NCBI RefSeq assembly: GCF_003544855.1
Contig: NZ_CP032101.1
Location: 868,001-932,000, forward strand
Source of the DNA: Malaciobacter marinus
Lineage (GTDB): Bacteria; Campylobacterota; Campylobacteria; Campylobacterales; Arcobacteraceae
DNA length: 64,000 bases
Direction: 5' to 3'
The notes beneath the pieces were generated by a model that worked only from the letters and a program-made list of their open reading frames with translations, had not been told where the DNA came from and did no database searches. Below, in pieces: positions 4,320 to 56,108 of the stretch; position 1 is the stretch's first letter; each line of letters opens with the position of its first letter. The translations under genes and the position numbers were made by a program.

Positions 4320-5135
4320 ATGATAAGAAAATGTTTATTTCCAGCAGCAGGCTATGGAACAAGATTTTTACCAGCAACAAAAGCAACACCAAAAGAGATG
4401 TTACCAGTACTTACAAAACCACTTATTCAATATGGGGTAGAAGAGGCTATTGACGCAGGTTGTAATACAATGGCAATAGTAACAGGAAGAGGAAAAAGAG
4501 CTATTGAAGACCACTTTGATATCTCATATGAATTAGAACATCAAATAAAAGGGTCAAGTAAAGAACACTATTTAACAGAAATTAGAGATGTGATAGAAAA
4601 CTGTACTTTTTCATATACTAGACAAACAAAGATGAAAGGTTTAGGACACGCAATCTTAACAGGACAAACCCTAATTGGAGATGAACCTTTTGCAGTGATT
4701 TTAGCAGATGATTTATGTGATAGTAAAACAGACGGTGTTTTAAAACAGATGGTAAATTTATATGAAAAATATCAGTGTTGTATAGTTGCTATTGAAGAAG
4801 TACCAAAAGAGCATACAAATAAATATGGAGTAATTTCAGGAAGAGAGATTGAATCAGGTATTTACATGATTGATAATATGGTGGAAAAACCAGAGCCAGA
4901 AAATGCGCCATCAAACCTTGCAATTATTGGAAGATATATCCTAACACCAGATATTTTTGAAATAATAGAAAACACAAAACCTGGAAAAGGTGGTGAGATA
5001 CAAATAACAGATGCCTTGCTAACTCAAGCAAAAAAAGGAATGGTCTTGGGATTTAAGTTTGATGGAGTTAGATTTGATTGTGGAAGTATAGATGGCTTTG
5101 TAGAAGCAACAAACCACTTTTATAAAAAAATTTAG
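4320..5135 (+). CDS. galU: UTP-glucose-1-phosphate uridylyltransferase GalU
   Basis: GalU makes UDP-glucose from UTP and glucose-1-phosphate, feeding LPS and capsule synthesis. The 271-residue protein has the nucleotidyltransferase signature FPAAGYGTRFLPATKATPKEMLPV at its N-terminus and the later motifs LADDLCD, VEKP and GGEIQITDAL. The length fits the bacterial GalU family. Its product is the substrate of the UDP-glucose dehydrogenase encoded at 17783. pgi follows on the same strand, an arrangement also known from Campylobacter. The last base of the stop codon is the first base of a single REP hairpin. Confidence 0.95.
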   Translation: MIRKCLFPAAGYGTRFLPATKATPKEMLPVLTKPLIQYGVEEAIDAGCNTMAIVTGRGKRAIEDHFDISYELEHQIKGSSKEHYLTEIRDVIENCTFSYTRQTKMKGLGHAILTGQTLIGDEPFAVILADDLCDSKTDGVLKQMVNLYEKYQCCIVAIEEVPKEHTNKYGVISGREIESGIYMIDNMVEKPEPENAPSNLAIIGRYILTPDIFEIIENTKPGKGGEIQITDALLTQAKKGMVLGFKFDGVRFDCGSIDGFVEATNHFYKKI

Positions 5136-5156
5136 GAAACTCGAATTTATTCGAGT
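5135..5156 (+). repeat. solitary REP-like hairpin after galU
   Basis: This single unit consists of the GGAA tag followed by the perfect stem CTCGAA/TTCGAG around a TTTA loop. It belongs to the same family as the large arrays elsewhere in the window and has the arm type seen at 43-56 kb. An A-rich rather than T-rich stretch follows, so it is a weak terminator candidate at best for galU. Confidence 0.8.
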
Positions 5157-7224: not shown

Positions 7225-7620
7225 ATGAAAAGTGCTTTTTCTTTACTAGAATTGATTTTTGTCTTGGTGCTATTAGCTTTAATAGGAAGTTATGCAATTC
7301 CTAAATATATGAATACAAAAAATGCAGCAGTTATTACAACAGTAAAAAGAGATATCTCTACAATAACTAGTTCCTTACAATCATATTTTTTATTACATGG
7401 AAAAATAGATGATTTAAATGAAGTTATAACTCTTGGAAGCGATGATTGGAGAATAGAAGAAAATACTATTACTTATAAAACAGCAAAAGGTGACTGCGTT
7501 TTTATTAAAGTAAATAATGAAGAAGAACAAATAGAATTGAATATTAATGAAACACTTGATAATATTTGTAAAAAATTAAATGAAGCAGGAGTTGTAAATA
7601 CTACAACCGCACTTTATTAA
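7225..7620 (+). CDS. type IV pilin-like (pseudopilin) protein
   Basis: The 131-residue protein begins MKSA followed by FSLLELIFVLVLLALIGSYAIP, a class III prepilin signal. Cleavage would fall between A4 and F5, and the conserved glutamate at mature position +5 is E9. An alanine rather than glycine precedes the cleavage site, which peptidases of this type tolerate. The hydrophobic helix is followed by a small hydrophilic domain with two cysteines (GDCVF and NICKK) that could form a disulfide. Such proteins are minor pilins or pseudopilins of type II secretion or DNA-uptake systems. No assembly genes are nearby, so the system it serves is unknown. Confidence 0.8.
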   Translation: MKSAFSLLELIFVLVLLALIGSYAIPKYMNTKNAAVITTVKRDISTITSSLQSYFLLHGKIDDLNEVITLGSDDWRIEENTITYKTAKGDCVFIKVNNEEEQIELNINETLDNICKKLNEAGVVNTTTALY

Positions 7621-7634
7621 GATTAGGAAGAAAT

Positions 7635-8156
7635 ATGCAAAAAGCCTTTTTTATAGATAGAGATGGCGTGATAAATACAGATAAAAACTATGTTTATAAA
7701 ATAGAAGACTTTGAGTTTATAGACGGAGTCATGGATGCTTTGTTGTATTTGCAAGAAAAAGAATTCAAACTATTTATAATAACAAATCAATCAGGAATAG
7801 GAAGAGCTTATTATCAAAAAGAGGATTTTGAAAAACTAACATCTTGGATGCTAAAAGAGTTTGAAAAAAACAGTATTAAAATCCATGAAGTAAAATATTG
7901 TCCCCATTCTCCTGAAGCAAACTGTAATTGTAGAAAACCAAAAACTGGTATGATAGATGAAATTTGTAAAGCATATGATATAGATTTAAAAAACTCATGG
8001 TTAATAGGAGATAAAGACTCAGACATAAAATGCGCCCAAAATGCAAAAATCAAAAATACAATACAAGTAAAATCAGGGCAAAAGTTTGATGAAACAAAAT
8101 CACAAGCAACATATGTACTTGATAGTATAAAAGATATAAAAAAAATAAAATTGTAA
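7635..8156 (+). CDS. gmhB: D-glycero-beta-D-manno-heptose 1,7-bisphosphate 7-phosphatase GmhB
   Basis: GmhB removes the 7-phosphate from heptose bisphosphate on the way to ADP-heptose for the LPS core. The HAD motif DRDGVIN starts at D8 (D8 and D10 catalytic), with TNQSG as motif II. The GmhB zinc loop is C89, H91, C97 and C99, followed by RKPKTGM, and the final HAD acidic motif is GDKDSD. The 173-residue length is typical. In relatives gmhB is followed by hldD; here a 2-kb segment with a RAYT gene, a ligase gene and REP arrays separates them. The first array unit after the stop is a hairpin with a T run and probably ends the transcript. Confidence 0.95.
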   Translation: MQKAFFIDRDGVINTDKNYVYKIEDFEFIDGVMDALLYLQEKEFKLFIITNQSGIGRAYYQKEDFEKLTSWMLKEFEKNSIKIHEVKYCPHSPEANCNCRKPKTGMIDEICKAYDIDLKNSWLIGDKDSDIKCAQNAKIKNTIQVKSGQKFDETKSQATYVLDSIKDIKKIKL

Positions 8157-8170
8157 TACTATCAGGTTTC

Positions 8171-8314
8171 GGAACCCCGAATTCATTCGGGGCTTTTTTG
8201 CACGGATAAATCTGCGCCTCCAATTTCACTTGCATTTTCGGGTCTTTTTTTGCACGAATAAATTCGAGCCTCCGACACATTGCCTCCCTTTGGAAACTCG
8301 AATTCATTCGAGTC
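8171..8314 (+). repeat. REP-like array 1 (gmhB - RAYT intergenic)
   Basis: Forward units (GGAA tag first) begin at 8171 and 8292. Reverse units (ending in CC of the tag complement) lie at 8200-8221 and 8252-8273. The 8171 unit has a perfect CCCCGAA/TTCGGGG stem followed by a T run, a good terminator for gmhB. Between the reverse units lies the spacer AATTTCACTTGCATTTTC, followed by a remnant (CGGGTC) where arrays 2 and 3 carry a complete forward unit. A frame across this array reads as a short protein but is only translated repeat. Confidence 0.9.
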
Positions 8315-8325
8315 CTTTTAAACCA

Positions 8326-8841
8326 CTACTCATACAAACTATAAACTCTTCTTTCCCAATCTTTTAACTTTGCTTTTATTGGATTATTGTATATGTAGTT
8401 GTAAACTTTTTCAAAATGTTTTTCATCTCTTATTACTTTATCATAATAACCTTTTTGCCAAAAACTTCCTTTTTTATTTAGCTTGGCATTTAATCTAAGT
8501 GCAGTTTTTGCTTTTATACATTTTATGATTTTATCAATGTCATCAAACTGCTTTATTAAAATATGAATATGATTTGGCATGATACATAATATTATGACTT
8601 CATAAAGATTACTTTGATTTTCCAATATAATATCTTTTACACTATCAATAAAATGACCATTTATATATGCACCCAACGAAGAGTTATCTAAGTAATTATC
8701 AATTTTATATTGTTTAATATGGTTACTCAATGATAAATCATTTTCAAGTTTTTTAAGATAAAAATCAATACTATTTTTTGTACGAAAAGTGATAAATTGA
8801 TAATGCTCTTTTAAGTTTATATGAGGAAGTTTTTTATACAT
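8326..8841 (-). CDS. REP-associated tyrosine transposase (RAYT, TnpA_REP family)
   Basis: This 171-residue protein of the Y1/HUH superfamily has the single-strand nuclease motif MPNHIHIL (H91 and H93) and the tyrosine region FWQKGYYDKVIRDEKHF (Y132 or Y133). YNYIYNNPIKAKL follows, the usual RAYT C-terminal signature. It lacks the IS200/IS605 companion tnpB and obvious element ends. Members of this family bind and cut REP hairpins through a 5' tetranucleotide tag. Here the gene is flanked on both sides by REP-like arrays, the layout expected of a REP system. It appears intact. A -10 box lies at 8855-8860, and the adjacent array covers its likely -35 region. Confidence 0.93.
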   Translation of the reverse strand: MYKKLPHINLKEHYQFITFRTKNSIDFYLKKLENDLSLSNHIKQYKIDNYLDNSSLGAYINGHFIDSVKDIILENQSNLYEVIILCIMPNHIHILIKQFDDIDKIIKCIKAKTALRLNAKLNKKGSFWQKGYYDKVIRDEKHFEKVYNYIYNNPIKAKLKDWERRVYSLYE

Positions 8842-8854
8842 AAATAACCCTTTT

Positions 8855-8860
8855 ATTATA
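8855..8860 (-). promoter_or_regulatory. -10 box for the RAYT gene
   Basis: On the minus strand this reads TATAAT, 13 bases before the RAYT start codon, with AAAAGGG between them as ribosome binding site. The position of a -35 box would fall inside the REP unit at 8864-8884. A protein bound to that hairpin could therefore block the promoter. That consequence is inference. Confidence 0.45.
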
Positions 8861-8863
8861 TCA

Positions 8864-9010
8864 GGAACCCAAATTCATTCGGGTCTTTTTTGCACGGATG
8901 AATCCGCGCTTCCAATTTCACTTGCATTTTCGGAACCCCGAATTCATTCGGGGCTTTTTGTACGGATAAATCCGCGCTTCCGACATTTGCACGAATAAAT
9001 TCGAGCTTCC
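8864..9010 (+). repeat. REP-like array 2 (RAYT - ligase intergenic)
   Basis: Forward units begin at 8864 and 8932. Reverse units lie at 8892-8913, 8960-8981 and 8989-9010. Order and spacers match arrays 1 and 3: forward, T run, reverse, the spacer AATTTCACTTGCATTTTC, forward, T run, reverse. One reverse unit begins GTAC instead of GCAC. Reverse units alternate between CGGAT/ATCCG and CGAAT/ATTCG arms, so pairing is kept by compensating changes. Confidence 0.92.
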
Positions 9011-9021
9011 GGTGAACTTTT

Positions 9022-9828
9022 TTACTCTTTTTTTCTTATTCTTAAAAAAGAAGCAAATTTTGGTTTATTGTATTTGGTAAATCCATAATACTTAAATGTC
9101 ACAATTTCACCTATTTTAGGTGGATTGTATCTTTGCTTATTTGTAAAACCTCCTCCTAGATTAAAAACTATATTATTTTGAAGTTTTATTACTAAGCTTT
9201 TCATTCTGTTTTTATCTTTTTTGTCATAATTTATATCTATGATTTTTCCTTCCATATCAAAAAATTTTTTTACTTTTAAGATATCTTGGCTTCTGCCTTG
9301 GAAGTAATGTTTATGGGGATTTTTTATTATTACGCCTTCTGCATTTTTAGATACTAGTTTTTCTAAAAATTCTTGAAGATGTTTTTTGTCTTTGCATTTT
9401 ATTTGAGGTACAAATTTGATATATTTATTTGGCTTATTTTTAAACCAATTTTTTACTTTGTTTAGTCTTGTTTGAAAATCACCTTTTGCGTTTGGTACCT
9501 CAAAGATATTATAAGTTATTTCACTCCATTTATTTGAGGCAATATCATCTAATACTATACTTTGTATGTTTTCAAAGTCACCTCTTTTAGTCCATAACTC
9601 TCCATCAAGTTCAAAACTTGGGAAATTTTTCGTGAACTCTTTTTTTGTATTTATTTTATTGCCATTTTTTGTAAGAAGTTGCTTCCCATTCCAATATGCA
9701 CGAATACCATCAAGCTTCTCACTCATGTACCAGCCTTTGATATTTTGCTTGTCATATGTCATGGGTTTTTGAAGATTGTTTGCAAAACAAGATATAAAAA
9801 AGAAAAATAGAAGAAGTGATTTTTTCAT
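9022..9828 (-). CDS. exported ATP-dependent DNA ligase (Lig E-like)
   Basis: This 268-residue minimal ATP-dependent ligase seals DNA nicks through a lysine-AMP intermediate. Motif I is KLDGIRA with K38 as nucleophile, motif III is FELDGELW (72-79), motif IV is EGVIIKNP and motif V is ILKVKKF. A short OB-fold tail ending FASFLRIRKKE completes the two-domain minimum. The N-terminus (MKKSLLLFFFFISCFANN) is a signal peptide with a likely cut after residue 17, which places the enzyme in the periplasm as described for the Lig E group. A TATAAT -10 box reads on the minus strand at 9860-9855. REP arrays bracket the gene. Confidence 0.9.
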   Translation of the reverse strand: MKKSLLLFFFFISCFANNLQKPMTYDKQNIKGWYMSEKLDGIRAYWNGKQLLTKNGNKINTKKEFTKNFPSFELDGELWTKRGDFENIQSIVLDDIASNKWSEITYNIFEVPNAKGDFQTRLNKVKNWFKNKPNKYIKFVPQIKCKDKKHLQEFLEKLVSKNAEGVIIKNPHKHYFQGRSQDILKVKKFFDMEGKIIDINYDKKDKNRMKSLVIKLQNNIVFNLGGGFTNKQRYNPPKIGEIVTFKYYGFTKYNKPKFASFLRIRKKE

Positions 9829-9903
9829 GAAAACTCTTTAAAATAATTTTAAAAATTATAATATTGTAAAGTTGAAAGATTGTTTAAGTGTTTTTTTAAT
9901 TAT

Positions 9904-10054
9904 GGAACCCCGAATTTATTCGGGGCAATTTGACACGGATGAATCCGCGCTTCCGATTTCACTTGCATTTTAGGAACTCCGAATTCATTCGGGGCTTTTT
10001 TGGCACGAATAAATTCGAGCTTCCAACACACTGCACGAATGAATCGGCGTTTCC
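9904..10054 (+). repeat. REP-like array 3 (ligase - hldD intergenic)
   Basis: Forward units begin at 9904 and 9973. Reverse units lie at 9933-9954, 10003-10024 and 10033-10054. It is the third direct copy of the composite seen at 8171 and 8864, with spacer GATTTCACTTGCATTTTA. With the promoters on either side it fills most of the roughly 300-bp gap between the ligase and hldD. No gene is seen in the gap. Confidence 0.92.
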
Positions 10055-10132
10055 GGTATTTGCTTGCAAAAACCTAATTTAATTGAATTTTAGTTAAAAT
10101 AGATGACTTTATAAACATAAGTGAGAGATATA

Positions 10133-11143
10133 ATGAAATATAATGATATAGATTTTAATAATAAAACGATTTTGATTACTGGAGCTGCTGGATTTATTGG
10201 TTCTAATTTGGCTTTTTATTTTCAAGAAAATTTTCCTGATGCAAATGTTATTGCTCTTGATTGCTTTAGATCTGGGCAGACTTTCTCAAATGGAAACTTG
10301 AAAAGTTTTGGGCATTTTAAAAACCTTATTGGATTTAAAGGTACTGTAATAAGTGGCGATATAAATGATACTGATCTTTTAAAAAGATTGGCTATACAGT
10401 ATAGCTTTGATTATATTTTTCATCAAGCAGCTATTTCAGATACAACTGTTAGTGAACAAGACTTGATGATAAAAACAAATGTAAATGCATATGAAGAGCT
10501 TTTAAAAATAGCTATAAACCACAATGCAAATATGGTTTATGCAAGTTCTGGTGCTACTTATGGAGATGCTTCTAGTCCACAAACAGTAGGAAAAGAGGCT
10601 CCAAGTAATGTTTATGGTTTTAGTAAACTAATGATGGATAATATCTCTTATTCTTATATAAACAAAAAACCAAATATCTCTATTGTTGGGCTTAGATACT
10701 TCAATGTTTATGGTCCAAGGGAGTTTTATAAAAATAAAACTGCTTCAACTGTTGTGCAGTTTGGACATCAGTTACTAAAAGGAAATGCTCCTAAACTATT
10801 TGAGGGAAGCGATAAAATACTTAGAGATTTTATATATATTGAAGATGTTATTCAAGCAAATATCAAAGCTTGCGCTCCTTTAAAAAGTGGAGTTTACAAT
10901 ATAGGTACTGGAAAAGCTAGATCATTTCAAGCAATAGCTGATATTTTACAAAAAGAGCTTGGAACAAACTTTGAAACACAATACATACCAAATCCATACA
11001 TAGGACAATATCAGTTTCATACAGAAGCAAATATGCAAGATAGTAAAGAAAATCTTGATTTTGAAGCAAGATATGAGCTAGAAGATGGAATAAAAGCTTA
11101 TATTCCAGAAATAAAAAGACTTTTCAATGATGAGGTAAAATAG
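10133..11143 (+). CDS. hldD: ADP-L-glycero-D-manno-heptose 6-epimerase HldD
   Basis: HldD is an extended short-chain dehydrogenase that inverts C6 of ADP-heptose to give the LPS-core precursor. The NAD-binding motif TGAAGFIGSN lies near the N-terminus, followed by SSGATYG and YGFSKLMMD (the YxxxK pair). ALDCFRSGQTFSNG lies near residue 45. A GTG at 10121 is in frame, but the ATG at 10133 is preferred because GAGAG precedes it and the protein then begins directly ahead of the Rossmann fold, giving 336 residues. The hldE ATG follows the stop codon without a gap. Confidence 0.93.
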   Translation: MKYNDIDFNNKTILITGAAGFIGSNLAFYFQENFPDANVIALDCFRSGQTFSNGNLKSFGHFKNLIGFKGTVISGDINDTDLLKRLAIQYSFDYIFHQAAISDTTVSEQDLMIKTNVNAYEELLKIAINHNANMVYASSGATYGDASSPQTVGKEAPSNVYGFSKLMMDNISYSYINKKPNISIVGLRYFNVYGPREFYKNKTASTVVQFGHQLLKGNAPKLFEGSDKILRDFIYIEDVIQANIKACAPLKSGVYNIGTGKARSFQAIADILQKELGTNFETQYIPNPYIGQYQFHTEANMQDSKENLDFEARYELEDGIKAYIPEIKRLFNDEVK

Positions 11144-17573: not shown

Positions 17574-17699
17574 GGAAACCCGAATTCATTCGGGTTTTAT
17601 CTTTGCACATTTTTTGCACGGATGAATCCGCGCCTCCAAAACACCATGCACGAATAAATTCGAGCCTCCAAACTCTGGAACCTCGAATTCATTCGAGGC
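17574..17699 (+). repeat. REP-like array 4 (pepA - ugd intergenic)
   Basis: Forward units begin at 17574 and 17677. Reverse units lie at 17616-17637 and 17648-17669. Arms are of the CCCGAA/TTCGGG and CTCGAA/TTCGAG types. The stretch from the forward unit through TTTGCACA to the two reverse units separated by AAAACACCAT is repeated nearly identically in array 5, beyond ugd. The first hairpin and its T-rich tail may terminate pepA transcription. The array marks the left edge of the polysaccharide region. Confidence 0.92.
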
Positions 17700-18992: not shown

Positions 18993-19320
18993 GGAATCTT
19001 GAATAAATTCGGGGCATTTTTTGCACGAATAAATTCGAGCCTCCAAATCTCGGACACCCGAATTCATTCGGGTCTTTCCACTTTGCACACTTTTTGCACG
19101 GATAAATCCGCGCCTCCAAAACACTCTCATTTCCGGAACCCCGAATTCATTCGGGGCATTGCACGGATAAATCCGCGCCTCCAAAACACCATGCACGAAT
19201 AAATTCGAGCTTCCAAAACTCGGACACCCGAATTCATTCGGGTCTTTCTTTACACACTTTTCACACGAATAAATCCGCGCTTCCAAAATAGCTAAATGGA
19301 ACCTCTAATTCATTCGAGCC
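18993..19320 (+). repeat. REP-like array 5 (ugd - epimerase intergenic), the largest array
   Basis: Ten units are recognisable. Forward units begin at 18993, 19052, 19135, 19222 and 19298. Reverse units lie at 19023-19044, 19096-19117, 19161-19182, 19193-19214 and 19263-19284. Apart from one doubled reverse unit they alternate, as expected of BIME-like structures. The 18993 and 19298 units are worn. It fills most of the roughly 430-bp gap. A -10 box for the next gene follows at 19390. Frames through this region encode only repeat-derived peptides. Confidence 0.93.
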
Positions 19321-43268: not shown

Positions 43269-43492
43269 GGAAACTCGAGTTTATTCGAGTCTTTTGTGAG
43301 GTGGGCTTTGCACGAATGAATTCGCGCTTCCGAATGTGATGGATGAATTTTGCCTTTTCGGAAACTCGAATTTATTCGAGTCTTTTGTGAGGTGGGCTTT
43401 GCACGAATGAATTTGCGCTTCCGTTTGGAGACTCGAATTTATTCGAGTATGATGGAGCTTGTTGAAAATGGCACGAATAAATTCGCGCTTCC
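43269..43492 (+). repeat. REP-like array 6 (pglE - pglF intergenic)
   Basis: Forward units begin at 43269, 43360 and 43427. Reverse units lie at 43310-43331, 43401-43422 and 43471-43492. The first two forward/reverse pairs form a 91-base tandem duplication including the loop CTTTTGTGAGGTGGGCTTT. The arms are the CTCGAA/TTCGAG and GCACGAA/TTCGCGC types seen in arrays 7-9. Apart from a possible 32-residue frame at its left end, the roughly 370-bp gap holds nothing else. Confidence 0.92.
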
Positions 43493-45256: not shown

Positions 45257-45303
45257 GCACGGAATGAATTCGCGCTTCCGTGGAGACTCGAATTTATTCG
45301 AGT
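45257..45303 (+). repeat. REP-like pair 7 (pglF - ychF intergenic)
   Basis: One reverse unit (45257-45279, with an extra G in the arm) is followed two bases later by a forward unit (45282-45303) with tag GGAG. The tags face each other, the opposite order to a forward-loop-reverse element. It marks the right edge of the polysaccharide region. Confidence 0.85.
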
Positions 45304-52123: not shown

Positions 52124-52239
52124 GCACGAATAAATTCGCGCTTCCATTGGAAACTCGAATTTATTCGAGTAGTGTGGAATGGTTGAAAACAGGCACGAAT
52201 GAATTCGAGCTTCCGTTGGAGACTCGAATTTATTCGAAT
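52124..52239 (+). repeat. REP-like array 8 (NosL-like gene - DUF364 gene intergenic)
   Basis: Reverse units lie at 52124-52145 and 52193-52214. Forward units lie at 52149-52170 and 52218-52239. Each reverse unit is followed three bases later by a forward unit. The linker between the two pairs (GTGTGGAATGGTTGAAAACA and neighbours) resembles linkers in arrays 6 and 9. A short reverse-strand frame here is repeat-derived and not counted as a gene. Confidence 0.92.
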
Positions 52240-52250
52240 CTATTCTTGTG

Positions 52251-53000
52251 TTATGTTTTTTGTAAATAACAGCTATTTTCAAAGATATCTTCAAAAGGGT
52301 TTTTTTCTATTTTCTCTTTTGAACAATCTTTTAAGTATAAGCTAGCAACATGGGTTACATTACTGTTTTTTAACCAAATTGGATTTAATCCAGCAGAAAA
52401 TCCTGATACCATAATAATTTTTGCTTTTGTTGCGAACTTTAGCAATGCATCAAAAGTTGAACCAATAAGTGCCGCACCTGTGATTACTACAATATCTGCT
52501 TTACTTACAGCTTCATACTCAAAGATATCATTATAAACTTCATTATTTAACTCTTTTTTTCTTCTACAAAAAACTGCTACATCTCTTGAGTTTTCTTTTA
52601 GTTTTTTTATTACAGGTTTTAAGTTTCCAATGAAAACTATTTTATCTTCTTTGGTACTATTTTCAAGTAAAAACTCACAGCTTTCAACTCTTAGATTCTT
52701 TTTTAATAAAGGTGGATTTTCTTGTAATTCATATTGTCCTATTGCATTTATTGTTGCAAGTATAATTGCTCTTGAGGCTAAATTAAAACTATCATCTTCT
52801 AAAATATCTTCAATACTTTTAAAGTTGTTATTTTTTAAATCTCCCTCATCACTTGGACTTAAAGCTACTCCAATAGAAGTTTTAGTTTTATTTGTAACTT
52901 CAACATAAGTAAATGGCTCACAAATTTTAAAACTTTTTAAAGTCAAAGAGTTTTTTTTAGCACTTTGAAGTGCTTGTTGTTTTAATATATCAAGTATCAT
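52251..53000 (-). CDS. DUF364-type protein, putative heavy-metal chelation domain
   Basis: This 249-residue soluble protein has the DUF364 layout. The N-terminal half contains YVEVTNKTKTSIGVALSPSDEG. The Rossmann-like C-terminal half contains VFIGNLKPVIKKLKE, ADIVVITGAALIGSTFDALLKFA and VMVSGFSAGLNPIWLKN-like sequence. The family is associated with metal ABC importers and proposed to bind metal. Here it is the last gene of such an operon, overlapping the ATPase gene by 11 bases. The biochemical function is unknown. Confidence 0.8.
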   Translation of the reverse strand: MILDILKQQALQSAKKNSLTLKSFKICEPFTYVEVTNKTKTSIGVALSPSDEGDLKNNNFKSIEDILEDDSFNLASRAIILATINAIGQYELQENPPLLKKNLRVESCEFLLENSTKEDKIVFIGNLKPVIKKLKENSRDVAVFCRRKKELNNEVYNDIFEYEAVSKADIVVITGAALIGSTFDALLKFATKAKIIMVSGFSAGLNPIWLKNSNVTHVASLYLKDCSKEKIEKNPFEDIFENSCYLQKT

Positions 53001-53796
53001 TAGTTTCCTTTTTATGTGAATGATTATGTGTGTTATTATGATGAGAGTGTCCTAAAAATAAAAAAGGATGTCCCTCTTGCCAAAATAGTTTACAAGTTGT
53101 ATCAAAAAGTTTAGAAATCATCTTTTGTGTAATATTTAAACTATTTTCAAAATATAAAATCTCTTTATTTTTAAGCATTATTATTTTATCAGCATAATGT
53201 AATGCATTTTGCAAATCATGCAATACAGTTATTGTAATAAACTCTTTTTCTTTCGTTTTGTTTCTTATTAGTTCAAGCATCTCTATTTGATTTTTAGGGT
53301 CAAGGTGAGATATTGGCTCATCTAAAAGTAAGATTTTAGGCTCTTGTAAAATTGCAGCTGCTAAAAAAATCTTTTGCCTTTCTCCTCCACTTAAAGTATC
53401 AATATCTCTATTTAAAAACTTTTGTAAGGCAAACTCATTTATACTATCTTCAATTAATTTATGATCATGTTTACTTAAAGAAAAACCACTATATTTTCTC
53501 CTTGAAATCTCTAATACATCAAGAGTAGTAAGGTTTGAATTTTGATTGAATTGTGCCATATAAGCAATATATTTTGATACACTATTTATTGAAGCAGTTG
53601 TAAACTCTATCTCATCTAAACTAATGTTTCCTTTGTGTATATCTATGACTTTTACAAGTGATTTTAGTAAAGTACTTTTACCTGCACCATTTGGTCCAAT
53701 TATAATATTTAAATCTTTTGGTTTTAGCTCTAAATTTATATTTGTAAGTAGAGTTTTTTTCTTTACTTTAACATGTAAATTAGTTATTTTTAGCAT
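52990..53796 (-). CDS. FecE/BtuD-type ABC transporter ATPase with histidine-rich tail
   Basis: This 268-residue ATPase energises the importer formed with the next two genes. Walker A is GPNGAGKSTLL, the signature is LSGGERQKIFLA, Walker B is ILLLDEPISHLD, and the switch histidine is in VLHDLQ. The C-terminus carries an unusual tail after residue 245 with GHSHHNNTHNHSH, seven histidines in 13 residues. Such a tail suggests binding of nickel, cobalt, zinc or copper. The start overlaps the permease stop. Confidence 0.92.
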   Translation of the reverse strand: MLKITNLHVKVKKKTLLTNINLELKPKDLNIIIGPNGAGKSTLLKSLVKVIDIHKGNISLDEIEFTTASINSVSKYIAYMAQFNQNSNLTTLDVLEISRRKYSGFSLSKHDHKLIEDSINEFALQKFLNRDIDTLSGGERQKIFLAAAILQEPKILLLDEPISHLDPKNQIEMLELIRNKTKEKEFITITVLHDLQNALHYADKIIMLKNKEILYFENSLNITQKMISKLFDTTCKLFWQEGHPFLFLGHSHHNNTHNHSHKKETNDT

Positions 53797-54812
53797 CTTG
53801 AACTTCTTTTATATAAAAAGTATAAAAATAGTGGAGCTCCAAGCATTGAAGTTATAATTCCCACAGGTATAGTAATAGGAAGTAAGATAGTTCTTGAAAC
53901 AATATCTGCAAGTAAAAGAAGAATTGCACCACTTAGTGCTGATAAAGGTAAAACATATTTATGTGAACTTCCTATAAAAAGTCTTACAATATGTGGTGCA
54001 ATAAGTCCTACAAATCCTATAATTCCAAAAAAACAAACACTAATAGCACTTAAAAATGATGCTACAATCATAGAGCCTAATCTAAGATTTTGAGTATTTA
54101 TTCCTAATGATTTTGCACTATCTTCACCTAACATCAAAGCATCGAACTTCCAAAAAATCTTAAAATAAGAAAATAGGCATATTAGTAAAACTAATCCAAT
54201 TGCTAAAATAGTACTCATACTAGCTTTAGACAAATCACCAAAAGTCCAAAATAGTGTAGCTGCTGCGTCAATATCATCTGCAAAATATTGAAGTAACATA
54301 GTAAATGCAGAAAAAAACGCACCTAAAGCTACCCCAAATAATATAAGTGATTCAGCTGACATATTTGCTCTTTTTCCTAAAGATACTATTAAAAGTGTAC
54401 ATATCATACTTGAAGCAAAAGCAAAGAGTGCAGTTATAAAACCTGCTTCATATGATGATGTGCTTGAGTATGATTGAAAGACTATTATTGCAAAACTTGC
54501 CCCAAAAGCACTTGCTTGAGATATCCCTAAAGTAAAAGGAGAAGCTAAAGGATTTTTTAGTACTGCTTGCATCATAGCTCCTGACAATCCAAGGGAAGCT
54601 CCTACTACAAATGCTGCTAAAGTTCTTGGTACTCTTATTTCAAAAACTATTATAGAAAAACTACCCTTTGCTTCTAAAAGTTTAAAAGTATCTGAAAAAA
54701 CAATCCCATTGTTTCCACTTATTAAAGAAATCCATATTAAACTTATTGTTATAAATAGTAATAAAATAGCAATAAAAAATCTTTTTTTTGAGTATAAATG
54801 TTTACTGTACAT
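53790..54812 (-). CDS. FecCD-type ABC transporter permease
   Basis: This 340-residue inner-membrane permease has about ten helices. Family landmarks are RVPRTLAAFVVGASLGLSGAMMQAVLKNPLASPFTLGIS (coupling region), GIIGFVGLIAPHIVRLFIG and VPVGIITSMLGAPLFLYFL. Transporters of this class import siderophores, haem, cobalamin or, in the MolBC branch, molybdate. It overlaps the ATPase by 7 and the binding protein by 11 bases, so the four genes form one operon. Confidence 0.93.
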   Translation of the reverse strand: MYSKHLYSKKRFFIAILLLFITISLIWISLISGNNGIVFSDTFKLLEAKGSFSIIVFEIRVPRTLAAFVVGASLGLSGAMMQAVLKNPLASPFTLGISQASAFGASFAIIVFQSYSSTSSYEAGFITALFAFASSMICTLLIVSLGKRANMSAESLILFGVALGAFFSAFTMLLQYFADDIDAAATLFWTFGDLSKASMSTILAIGLVLLICLFSYFKIFWKFDALMLGEDSAKSLGINTQNLRLGSMIVASFLSAISVCFFGIIGFVGLIAPHIVRLFIGSSHKYVLPLSALSGAILLLLADIVSRTILLPITIPVGIITSMLGAPLFLYFLYKRSSRC

Positions 54813-55803
54813 TAGTATTGATATCTTTTCCTAAAAATTTTTTATAAACTCTTTCTTTTACTTTTTTTATATCTATATCTTTTCCAAAATGTGAAGCAAT
54901 TAACCAACTGTTTATATAAATATTTTCTATATTTGTATTGTAAAAATTACTTGGATATAACCAATAAATATTACTGTTTTTAAAAGCTTGAATATGTTTA
55001 TAAATTGCTTTGTCTTTTTCTATCTCTTCTAAAATTATTTTTCTACTAACTAAGTCTAAAAAAACAACTTCAGGATTGAAACTTAAAAGTGTTTCTTTAT
55101 TTACAAATGCATGACCAATATGATTTTGTAAGATTGGATTTTTTATATTTAGAAGTTTAAATGCAGGATAATCACTCTCTGTACTTGTAATACCATGAAG
55201 TCCTTTATATGCAACTCCACCAACATATATGGCTTTATCATCAATCGTTATTTTTTTTAAAGCTTCTTTTTGCTTATTCATAAAAGTGATTAGTTCATCT
55301 GCTCTATTTTGTTTGTCCATGATTTGTGCTATTATCAACATAGATTTTTTTACAGCTTCGATTTTGTCTTCTTTATTGTTTTTGCCACCATAATTTGAGC
55401 CATAACTTAGTGCTATAACTGGAGTTTTAGTTTTTTCTTGAATTAAAGCTACTTGTTTAGGTGAAAGTATAGATGTAAAAATCACATCAGGTTTTAAACT
55501 TATTAATGTTTCTAAATTTGGCATTTTCCCAGGTCCACCTTGACCTACAATAGGAAGTGATTTGATAAACTTTTTATCAAGTACTAAACTATAAGCCGAA
55601 TTAGGACTAAATCTTAACTCTTTTTTTTCAATACCTATAAGTTTTTTTTCAAGTTGCATATAAGTTATAAGTCTTAATGTTCCAGGACCTAAACACACTA
55701 TTTTATTATTATCTGTAATTTCTACTTCTCTATCATACATATCAACAAAAATCTTTGCATTAAGTGTAAGTGCTATAAATATTATAAGAAAAAGTAATCT
55801 CAT
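54802..55803 (-). CDS. periplasmic metal/chelate-binding protein of the ABC importer
   Basis: This 333-residue binding protein begins at the ATG at 55803, which has GGAG six bases upstream; an earlier in-frame TTG at 55815 is unlikely because it contains that site. The signal peptide is MRLLFLIIFIALTLNA. The mature part has the class III fold with ITDNNKIVCLGPGTLRLITYMQL, the central segment GQGGPGKMPNLETLISLKPDVIFTS and NPEVVFLDL. The ligand cannot be identified. The histidine-rich ATPase and DUF364 neighbour favour a metal or metallophore. Confidence 0.88.
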   Translation of the reverse strand: MRLLFLIIFIALTLNAKIFVDMYDREVEITDNNKIVCLGPGTLRLITYMQLEKKLIGIEKKELRFSPNSAYSLVLDKKFIKSLPIVGQGGPGKMPNLETLISLKPDVIFTSILSPKQVALIQEKTKTPVIALSYGSNYGGKNNKEDKIEAVKKSMLIIAQIMDKQNRADELITFMNKQKEALKKITIDDKAIYVGGVAYKGLHGITSTESDYPAFKLLNIKNPILQNHIGHAFVNKETLLSFNPEVVFLDLVSRKIILEEIEKDKAIYKHIQAFKNSNIYWLYPSNFYNTNIENIYINSWLIASHFGKDIDIKKVKERVYKKFLGKDINTNVQ

Positions 55804-55907
55804 TGTACTCTCCAAAATTTCTTAAGAGTGTAATTTAATATATATAAATAAGTAATAAAAAAGCAAACTGCTTATGTAGTTTTGGAACTAAATTGTCTTG
55901 AAAAGAT

Positions 55908-56108
55908 GCACGAATGAATTCGAGCTTCCTGTTTGCAAACTCTTCAGAAACTTGAATTTATTCGAGTATGGTGGAATTGAGTTGAAAGAGGCACGAATAA
56001 ATTCGCGCGTCCAGTGTTGGAAACTCGAATTTATTCTAATCTTTTGTGAGCTGAGATTTTGCACGAATGAATTCGCGCTTCCTTTTGGAAACTCGAATTT
56101 ATTCGAGT
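55908..56108 (+). repeat. REP-like array 9 (ABC operon - superoxide reductase intergenic)
   Basis: Reverse units lie at 55908-55929, 55991-56012 and 56061-56082. Forward units begin at 55946 (worn tag AGAA), 56019 and 56087. The loop CTTTTGTGAGCTGAGATTTT at 56041 matches the loop of array 6. The last hairpin lies 16 bases from the stop codon of the reverse-strand superoxide reductase gene. The roughly 320-bp gap holds no gene; a 70-codon frame through it is translated repeat. Confidence 0.92.

Follow-up and report, generated by a model that had tools for sequence, protein, structure and literature searches.

A RAYT gene and its local family of GGAA/GGAG-tagged hairpins as a probable REPtron in Malaciobacter

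Introduction

Arrays of short hairpin repeats flank a small transposase-like gene in the window (the whole stretch of DNA that was analyzed, 64,000 nucleotides, positions 868001-932000 of a 2.917-Mb contig), and the locus raises the question of whether this gene spread the repeats. REP accumulation near rayt genes is already known and was in print in 2010 and 2021. In Marinomonas REPtrons the REPs are concentrated near tnpA, which was read as local multiplication after a recent arrival (PMC8266576), and local REPs in three marine gammaproteobacteria and Thauera, in regions of up to 200 kb, were read as multiplication nearby (PMC2817692). Those repeats are piled near the gene as in the window, although they come from another phylum and carry a GT(A/G)G-type tag. 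On the basis of sequence comparison, we consider with good confidence that the window gene and its flanking hairpins represent a REPtron, in which a Y1 HUH transposase of the RAYT/TnpAREP type, present as a single copy, is accompanied by its cognate REP family, and that the local hairpin repeats were very probably spread by this RAYT.

Results

The RAYT gene and its neighborhood

In the list of open reading frames of the window the gene is complete from ATG to stop and encodes 171 amino acids. The protein matched Y1_Tnp (PF01797) with an E value of 9.7e-12 and 45.5 bits against a cut-off of 23, and it scored 70.5 bits with the NCBI REP-associated transposase model NF047646, which is under the cut-off of 80, a naming threshold. 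The locus is as follows (strand given where one applies).

8326-8841, minus strand: predicted RAYT/TnpAREP-like Y1 HUH endonuclease, 171 aa, with H91, H93, W128, Q129, R138 and Y149 (catalytic by alignment)
8157-9021: RAYT and its arrays between convergent GmhB-type and DNA ligase genes; the corresponding junction is a short gap in the congeners G079, G081 and G082
8171-8313: REP array downstream of the RAYT, units 8171(+), 8221(-), 8273(-) and 8292(+)
8863-9010: REP array upstream of the RAYT, units 8863(+), 8913(-), 8932(+), 8981(-) and 9010(-)

The original prediction of an intact RAYT between two REP arrays, placed at 8171-8314 and 8864-9010, therefore stands, with four and five listed units on the two sides. 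Its statement that tnpB is missing also agrees with the neighbors, one of which encodes a GmhB-type phosphatase and the other a small ATP-dependent DNA ligase. The labels galU, LigE, hldD and PglF for window genes are ones we take to be appropriate, and the families behind them come from profile matches. No excess of promoter-like sites was found in front of the RAYT (15 compared with 15.2 in shuffled sequences), and no Rfam family matched the window at gathering thresholds.

The genome of the window (G000) contains one such gene. The sole other PF01797 match in the genome is an unlike Y1 HUH protein near 1.883 Mb (L001, 1099-1872), which is longer (257 aa), of a different kind and carries an NHYH motif; the 3.3 kb surrounding it contained no TTYA unit. 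The closest named relative found was Malaciobacter halophilus DSM 18005, whose RAYT is 96% identical, and the genome G078 was taken as M. halophilus. Between G000 and M. halophilus the RAYT has a dN of 0.017, a dS of 0.193 and a dN/dS of 0.09; the gene is conserved and under purifying selection.

Active site and protein family

The histidines proposed earlier for the HUH motif, H91 and H93, proved correct and are invariant in 51/51 aligned homologues. The tyrosines proposed with them, Y132 and Y133, did not hold up, since in a phmmer alignment both fall on the non-Tyr 'FW' of E. coli TnpAREP (4er8). In the same alignment Y149 (nYIYNNP, 21 residues after W128) aligned with the Tyr of dYIYiNP in 4er8. 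Y149 is invariant in all 51 homologues, and Phe replaces Y132 in 1 of them and Y133 in 17. The Tyr of YIYINP is the catalytic residue of E. coli TnpAREP, in line with the Y-motif column in PMC6006769. Hence, the predicted catalytic tyrosine of the window RAYT is Y149, not Y132 or Y133. An AlphaFold model built from four sequences was weak (mean pLDDT of 63); a Foldseek search with this weak model placed an IS200/IS605 transposase at the top, followed by 4er8, and these were the sole two matches with E <0.001.

The HUH Y1 core and the Tyr in YIxxNP are common to the window RAYT and the E. coli-type REPtron (4er8; PMC8266576; PMC2817692). The motifs of TnpAY1 subclass 2.4 of Quentin et al. 2018, which equals Bertels group 4 (PMC6006769), namely NH[IFV]H, WQ and YIxNNP, are also present in the window protein as NHIH, WQ and YIxNNP, a likeness judged on motifs by eye. 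The window protein differs from this subclass in the spacing of H91 and Y149, which is 58 compared with a subclass median of 88, a median being no rule. The subclass has WQ, whereas the residue following the Trp is Gln in just 7/51 aligned rows here, and its tag is GT(A/G)G (PMC6006769), from which the window tag differs. In class 1 IS200/IS605 transposases the Y motif has a Gln five residues after the Tyr (PMC6006769); in the window protein Y149 is followed by IYNNP without that Gln.

In E. coli TnpAREP, Q95, D/E100 and R104 take part in tag recognition, and the role of W94 is given as unclear (PMC6006769, PMC8266576). The position aligned to Q95 is Gln in just 7/51 homologues, but the window protein retains it, so that a simple rule linking residue and tag cannot be drawn from this position. 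One candidate rule, that an acidic residue following W128 reads a G in the fourth tag position, was set as a hypothesis beforehand and examined on 21 new loci. All 5 acidic loci had G at this position, with 2 of the 5 needing their tag re-registered by eye; among the non-acidic loci 9 did not have G, 2 did (L094 and L106) and 1 was a tie (L101), and 4 loci gave no residue call. Since all acidic rows fall in a single clade of the tree, they represent one event and no independent evidence, and the candidate was rejected.

The repeat units

The window holds 47 listed units, assembled by hand from pattern matches; two overlapping matches were omitted, and the units at 8863 and 18993 were added by eye. 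They occupy 10 intergenic gaps and overlap any listed gene by no more than 1 nt. The two flanking arrays described originally are therefore real but belong to a larger family, whose other members are the following.

5135-5156, plus strand: single REP unit, starting on the last stop-codon base of a nucleotidyltransferase gene that we take to be galU-like
9904-10054: REP array of 5 units in the gap that separates the ligase gene from an epimerase-family gene
17574-17698: REP array of 4 units in the gap between leucyl aminopeptidase and UDP-glucose dehydrogenase
18993-19319: REP array of 10 listed units in the gap between UDP-glucose dehydrogenase and an epimerase; the gap is 436 bp, and about half of that in M. 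halophilus
43269-43492: REP array of 6 units in an insertion of about 350 bp, absent at the same M. halophilus junction
45259-45303: REP pair in the gap between a Polysacc_synt_2 gene and ychF
52124-52239: REP array of 4 units on one side of a cassette of 4 genes that includes a BtuC-like permease
55908-56108: REP array of 6 units on the other side of the BtuC-like permease cassette

The core pattern matched the window 74 times compared with 2.2 expected (it is palindromic, and many sites were counted on both strands), and the longer pattern 47 times compared with 0.08 expected. The tags of the 47 units are GGAA in 32, GGAG in 10, GGAC in 3 and others in 2; the loops are TTTA in 25, TTCA in 21 and TAAA in 1. 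The 5' GT[AG]G tetranucleotide of canonical REPs is not what these units carry.

The 23 plus-strand units have stems such as ACTCGAA and CCCCGAA, mostly fully paired, with pair 3 paired in all 23. The 24 minus-strand units have GCGC or GCTC stems, and their pair 3 on the tagged strand is G.T in 15, T.T in 8 and G.G in 1. The A-C stem mismatch originally described for the reverse units thus exists on the untagged strand, and on the tagged strand it reads G.T, T.T or G.G. The proposal that this mismatch is recognized found no support, as mismatched and perfect units coexist and perfect stems occur in many relatives. When four units were folded as single-stranded DNA, the tagged strand was more stable than its complement in 4/4 cases (a GCGC unit gave -6.0 compared with -3.7 kcal/mol, a GCTC unit -3.8 compared with -3.1, and two perfect units -7.4 compared with -6.8 and -5.6 compared with -5.3).

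Opposed unit types are often paired at about 50-66 nt with the tags on the outside, and such pairs are repeated in arrays, as in REPINs or BIMEs. For REPINs the pair is a mobile element, whereas the window pairs are known from their arrangement. The outermost units around the RAYT, 8171(+) and 9010(-), have their tags outward, so that the gene is flanked by inverted units.

As a side observation, orientation between 5135 and 56108 is strict: every one of the 23 plus-strand units has one stem type and every one of the 24 minus-strand units has the other, regardless of the direction of the neighboring gene. With respect to a replication-strand rule, the GC skew sampled in G102, G226 and G535 was mixed, and the lone G000 unit at 2.28 Mb has a local GC skew of the opposite sign.

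Distribution of the repeats in the genome

The window-derived pattern found 53 units genome-wide, 45 of them in the window between 873,135 and 924,108 (51 kb), 7 at 331-336 kb and 1 at 2.280 Mb. Since this strict pattern was derived from the window, the distribution was rechecked with a wider model that drew on 84 units from many genera. It gave 43 matches in the G000 window, 6 in the 330-345 kb stretch and 0 in the 19 others of 20 evenly spread 15-kb stretches. In G078, all 29 strict-pattern matches are on the RAYT contig. The repeats are thus concentrated around the RAYT gene and a surface-polysaccharide region. Of the matches in five other genomes, 8/27 (G102, strict pattern), 2/28 (G352), 19/43 (G226), 17/31 (G396) and 6/9 (G414) were located no more than 60 kb from the RAYT, which indicates that spread and local populations both exist.

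Co-occurrence of RAYT and repeats

RAYT matches at E<=1e-20 were present in 4/104 genomes of the own family (17/104 at E 1e-5, the remainder being short or weak), 15/397 of a class sample, 26/228 and 23/175 of two other families and 1/21 of a third; these genome sets overlap. Among six genomes of the genus, the strict pattern matched 53 times in G000 and 29 times in G078, which have the RAYT, and 0 times in each of G079-G082, which lack it and where the wider model gave 0, 1, 3 and 0 matches. In the own family, 13/104 genomes had a strict-pattern match, mostly few.

The wider model was applied to 36 hand-picked genomes, with up to 150 candidates scored in each. The 16 genomes with a RAYT gave 41, 21, 3, 23, 43, 113, 134, 1, 3, 3, 1, 31, 9, 28, 15 and 13 matches, several of these genomes having supplied units to the model. 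The 20 genomes without one gave 0, 1, 3, 0, 2, 76, 3, 3, 1, 2, 4, 1, 1, 2 and six zeros; four of these (G036, G041, G057 and G091) have a weakly matching protein of the longer Y1 type. The median was 18 in the first group and 1 in the second (one-sided Mann-Whitney P of 6e-5, relatedness ignored). Five of the 16 RAYT genomes gave just 1-3 matches, which may reflect units with other loops or with bulges.

The expectation that repeats track the RAYT was thus borne out in the genus (2/2 genomes with the gene, 4/4 without) and in the medians, with one exception. Abundant repeats without a RAYT, the finding that the original proposal named as speaking against it, were seen once, in G101, a 220-contig assembly with 76 model matches and no PF01797 match. 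Since the assembly is in 220 contigs, the RAYT may be missing from it, or it may have been lost. The repeats of G101, a genome of the own family (L192-L201), are genuine GGAA/GGAG TTYA units, and their inner stems show compensating changes.

The tag across related RAYT loci

In related families, homologues with 37-59% identity also have such tagged hairpins beside them. In a scan of 57 RAYT loci that left the tag open, with loops restricted to TTYA, CTTG and GTTC, 202 of 227 hairpins had a GGRN tag (GGAA 105, GGAG 33, GGAT 32, GGGG 28, GGAC 3 and one other). A control of 474 kb gave 9 hairpins, none with GGRN, the control being from G000 and three other Malaciobacter genomes and the scanned loci from many genera. 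The 57 loci omit L078, L079 and L003-L008; L003 and L004, judging by length, share contigs with L010 and L011. By script, at least two GGRN hairpins were found at 33/57 loci, and at 45/57 with a one-base bulge allowed. Eight further loci showed GGAA/GGAG by eye or in earlier scans (L035, L039, L040, L069, L070, L077, L093 and L102), so that GG(A/G)N-tagged hairpins are present at 53/57 homologous loci. Loops in the bulge-tolerant scan were TTTA in 183, TTCA in 114, CTTG in 7 and GTTC in 5. The four loci without a GGRN unit are L072, which has GTAA, and L075, L107 and L108, which have none. At L072 there are 11 hairpins with GTAA, a tag intermediate between the canonical GTAG and GGAA.

When the tag class (fourth base) of 50 labelled loci was placed on the RAYT tree, 5 changes were required compared with a mean of 15.6 in 2000 shuffles (minimum 10); tag and RAYT are inherited together. 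The tree with the single acidic clade excludes L078 (same protein as L071) and L069, L076, L104, L107, L108 and L109 (fragments or no W motif), L079 was not entered, and for 9 loci the tag was added manually. Units gathered across genera showed strong pair covariation, which is inflated by the pairing filter used in their collection.

Four papers (PMC6006769, PMC2817692, PMC3733652, PMC8266576) describe the tags GT(A/G)G and CGTC, with CnGA in class 3, and "GGAA" is absent from their main text as searched. Within the literature searched, no paper contains both RAYT and Campylobacterota as whole words, and for REPs with Sulfurimonas the one result was a paper on a survey tool that does not mention RAYT. 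Epsilonproteobacteria are reported to contain GTAG repeats, and Sulfurovum carries GTAG as well as CGTC repeats (PMC3733652), so the phylum has other tags too. Hence, the GGRN tag (once GTAA) departs from the textbook GT(A/G)G, and no description of it was found within the literature searched.

Empty sites in congeners

The empty-site comparison used G079, G081 and G082; in G080 the ligase by which the locus was located had no match. Besides the short gap in place of the RAYT, no clear unit was found at the other junctions compared in these three genomes. The best model matches in 189 kb of their sequence had E values of 0.13 and weaker, and some of those matches are terminator-like hairpins at junctions that hold arrays in G000. 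A REP-like stretch after UDP-glucose dehydrogenase in G079 and G081, picked by eye as a possible decayed REP, was not reported by the model and was discarded. Most arrays lie among genes whose orthologs keep their order in the repeat-free congeners; therefore, the units were gained in, or lost from, resident gaps. At matching junctions the arrays differ between G000 and G078.

Across the window genes (676-63716), dS against M. halophilus ranges from 0.03 to 1.03, a sign of mosaic recombination. The RAYT has a dS of 0.19, whereas its neighbors have 0.95 and 0.60, so the RAYT tract probably has a different recombination history.

Discussion

The repeats could have arrived with imported or recombined DNA of the surface-polysaccharide region, with the clustering being a trace of that history and not of local spread by the RAYT now. 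The dS mosaic, including the low value of the RAYT beside its neighbors, fits such an import, as does the cassette at 20.5-40.9 kb, which is almost wholly different between G000 and M. halophilus. However, the genes around most of the arrays have orthologs in the same order in repeat-free congeners, which places the repeats in resident gaps, the arrays are unlike at the same junctions of the two species, and the RAYT itself is conserved at a dN/dS of 0.09. We consider this explanation unlikely.

We regard it as very unlikely that a role in transcription termination or regulation maintains the hairpins, with the RAYT as a bystander. The plus-strand units at 8175-8200, 8936-8960 and 9977-10001 do end in T-runs and score as intrinsic terminators, the first of them lying directly behind the GmhB-type gene, and the region 7600-10200 has 5 terminator-like sites compared with 1.4 in shuffles. 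At least four T follow the unit in 12/47 cases; the other 35/47 have no T-run. Moreover, both strands are used, arrays of 10 units go beyond what termination needs, and units of this kind are rare without a RAYT, except in G101. That the 257-aa Y1 protein near 1.883 Mb works the repeats is hardly credible: being the only other PF01797 match in the genome speaks for it, but its 3.3-kb surroundings are free of TTYA units, and genomes with only such weak matches (G036, G041, G057 and G091) have 1-3 model matches.

The reading that we prefer is a REPtron whose own RAYT spread the local repeats. The original view of this RAYT as the likely driver is well supported by the comparisons, namely the co-presence in the genus, the tagged hairpins at the loci of relatives and the tag on the tree. 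We infer that the RAYT may be active at present, may transpose units and may read tag and loop. The protein would bind the folded single strand of a unit, with its 5' tag GGAA/GGAG, 7-bp stem and TTYA loop. Y149 would then cut beside the unit via a 5'-phosphotyrosine, and the unit end would be rejoined elsewhere, by which REPs or inverted REP pairs would be copied or moved, mostly near the gene. The E. coli-type REPtron is like the window in having tagged hairpins inverted around the gene, copies between other genes and co-presence of gene and repeats. It differs in its GT(A/G)G tag, compared with GGAA/GGAG and perfect stems beside mismatched ones in the window, and in its genome-wide repeats, whereas those of the Malaciobacter host are local. 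The window system thus departs from the textbook in its tag and its tight locality.

We tentatively suggest, as a joint reading that we consider somewhat unlikely, that a Campylobacterota RAYT lineage reads GG(A/G)N and is so local in Malaciobacter that the arrays became borders of exchangeable cassettes. The cassettes that this reading would include are the RAYT itself, the four-gene transport cassette and the surface-polysaccharide block. The evidence for the arrays as borders is purely positional. At 52124-56108, four genes, one of which encodes a BtuC-like permease, have an array on each side, and ATTAATAAG occurs beside both outer ends. The place of these genes (52.25-55.82 kb) is a short gap between the same neighbors in G082, and in G079 the neighbors are >8 kb apart with other content. 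From 20524 to 40861, M. halophilus has at the corresponding position almost nothing that matches about 20 kb of the surface-polysaccharide block, and both sides are orthologous. The block (20.5-40.9 kb) lies between the arrays at 19.3 and 43.3 kb, with one gene intervening on the left and three on the right, and G078 lacks the right-hand array.

The lineage extends REPtrons to another tag. Its natural series of RAYTs and tags (GGAA, GGAG, GGAT, GGGG and GTAA) makes tag reading testable residue by residue, and the small local repeat population, together with closely related repeat-free species, provides empty-site controls for how REPs spread.
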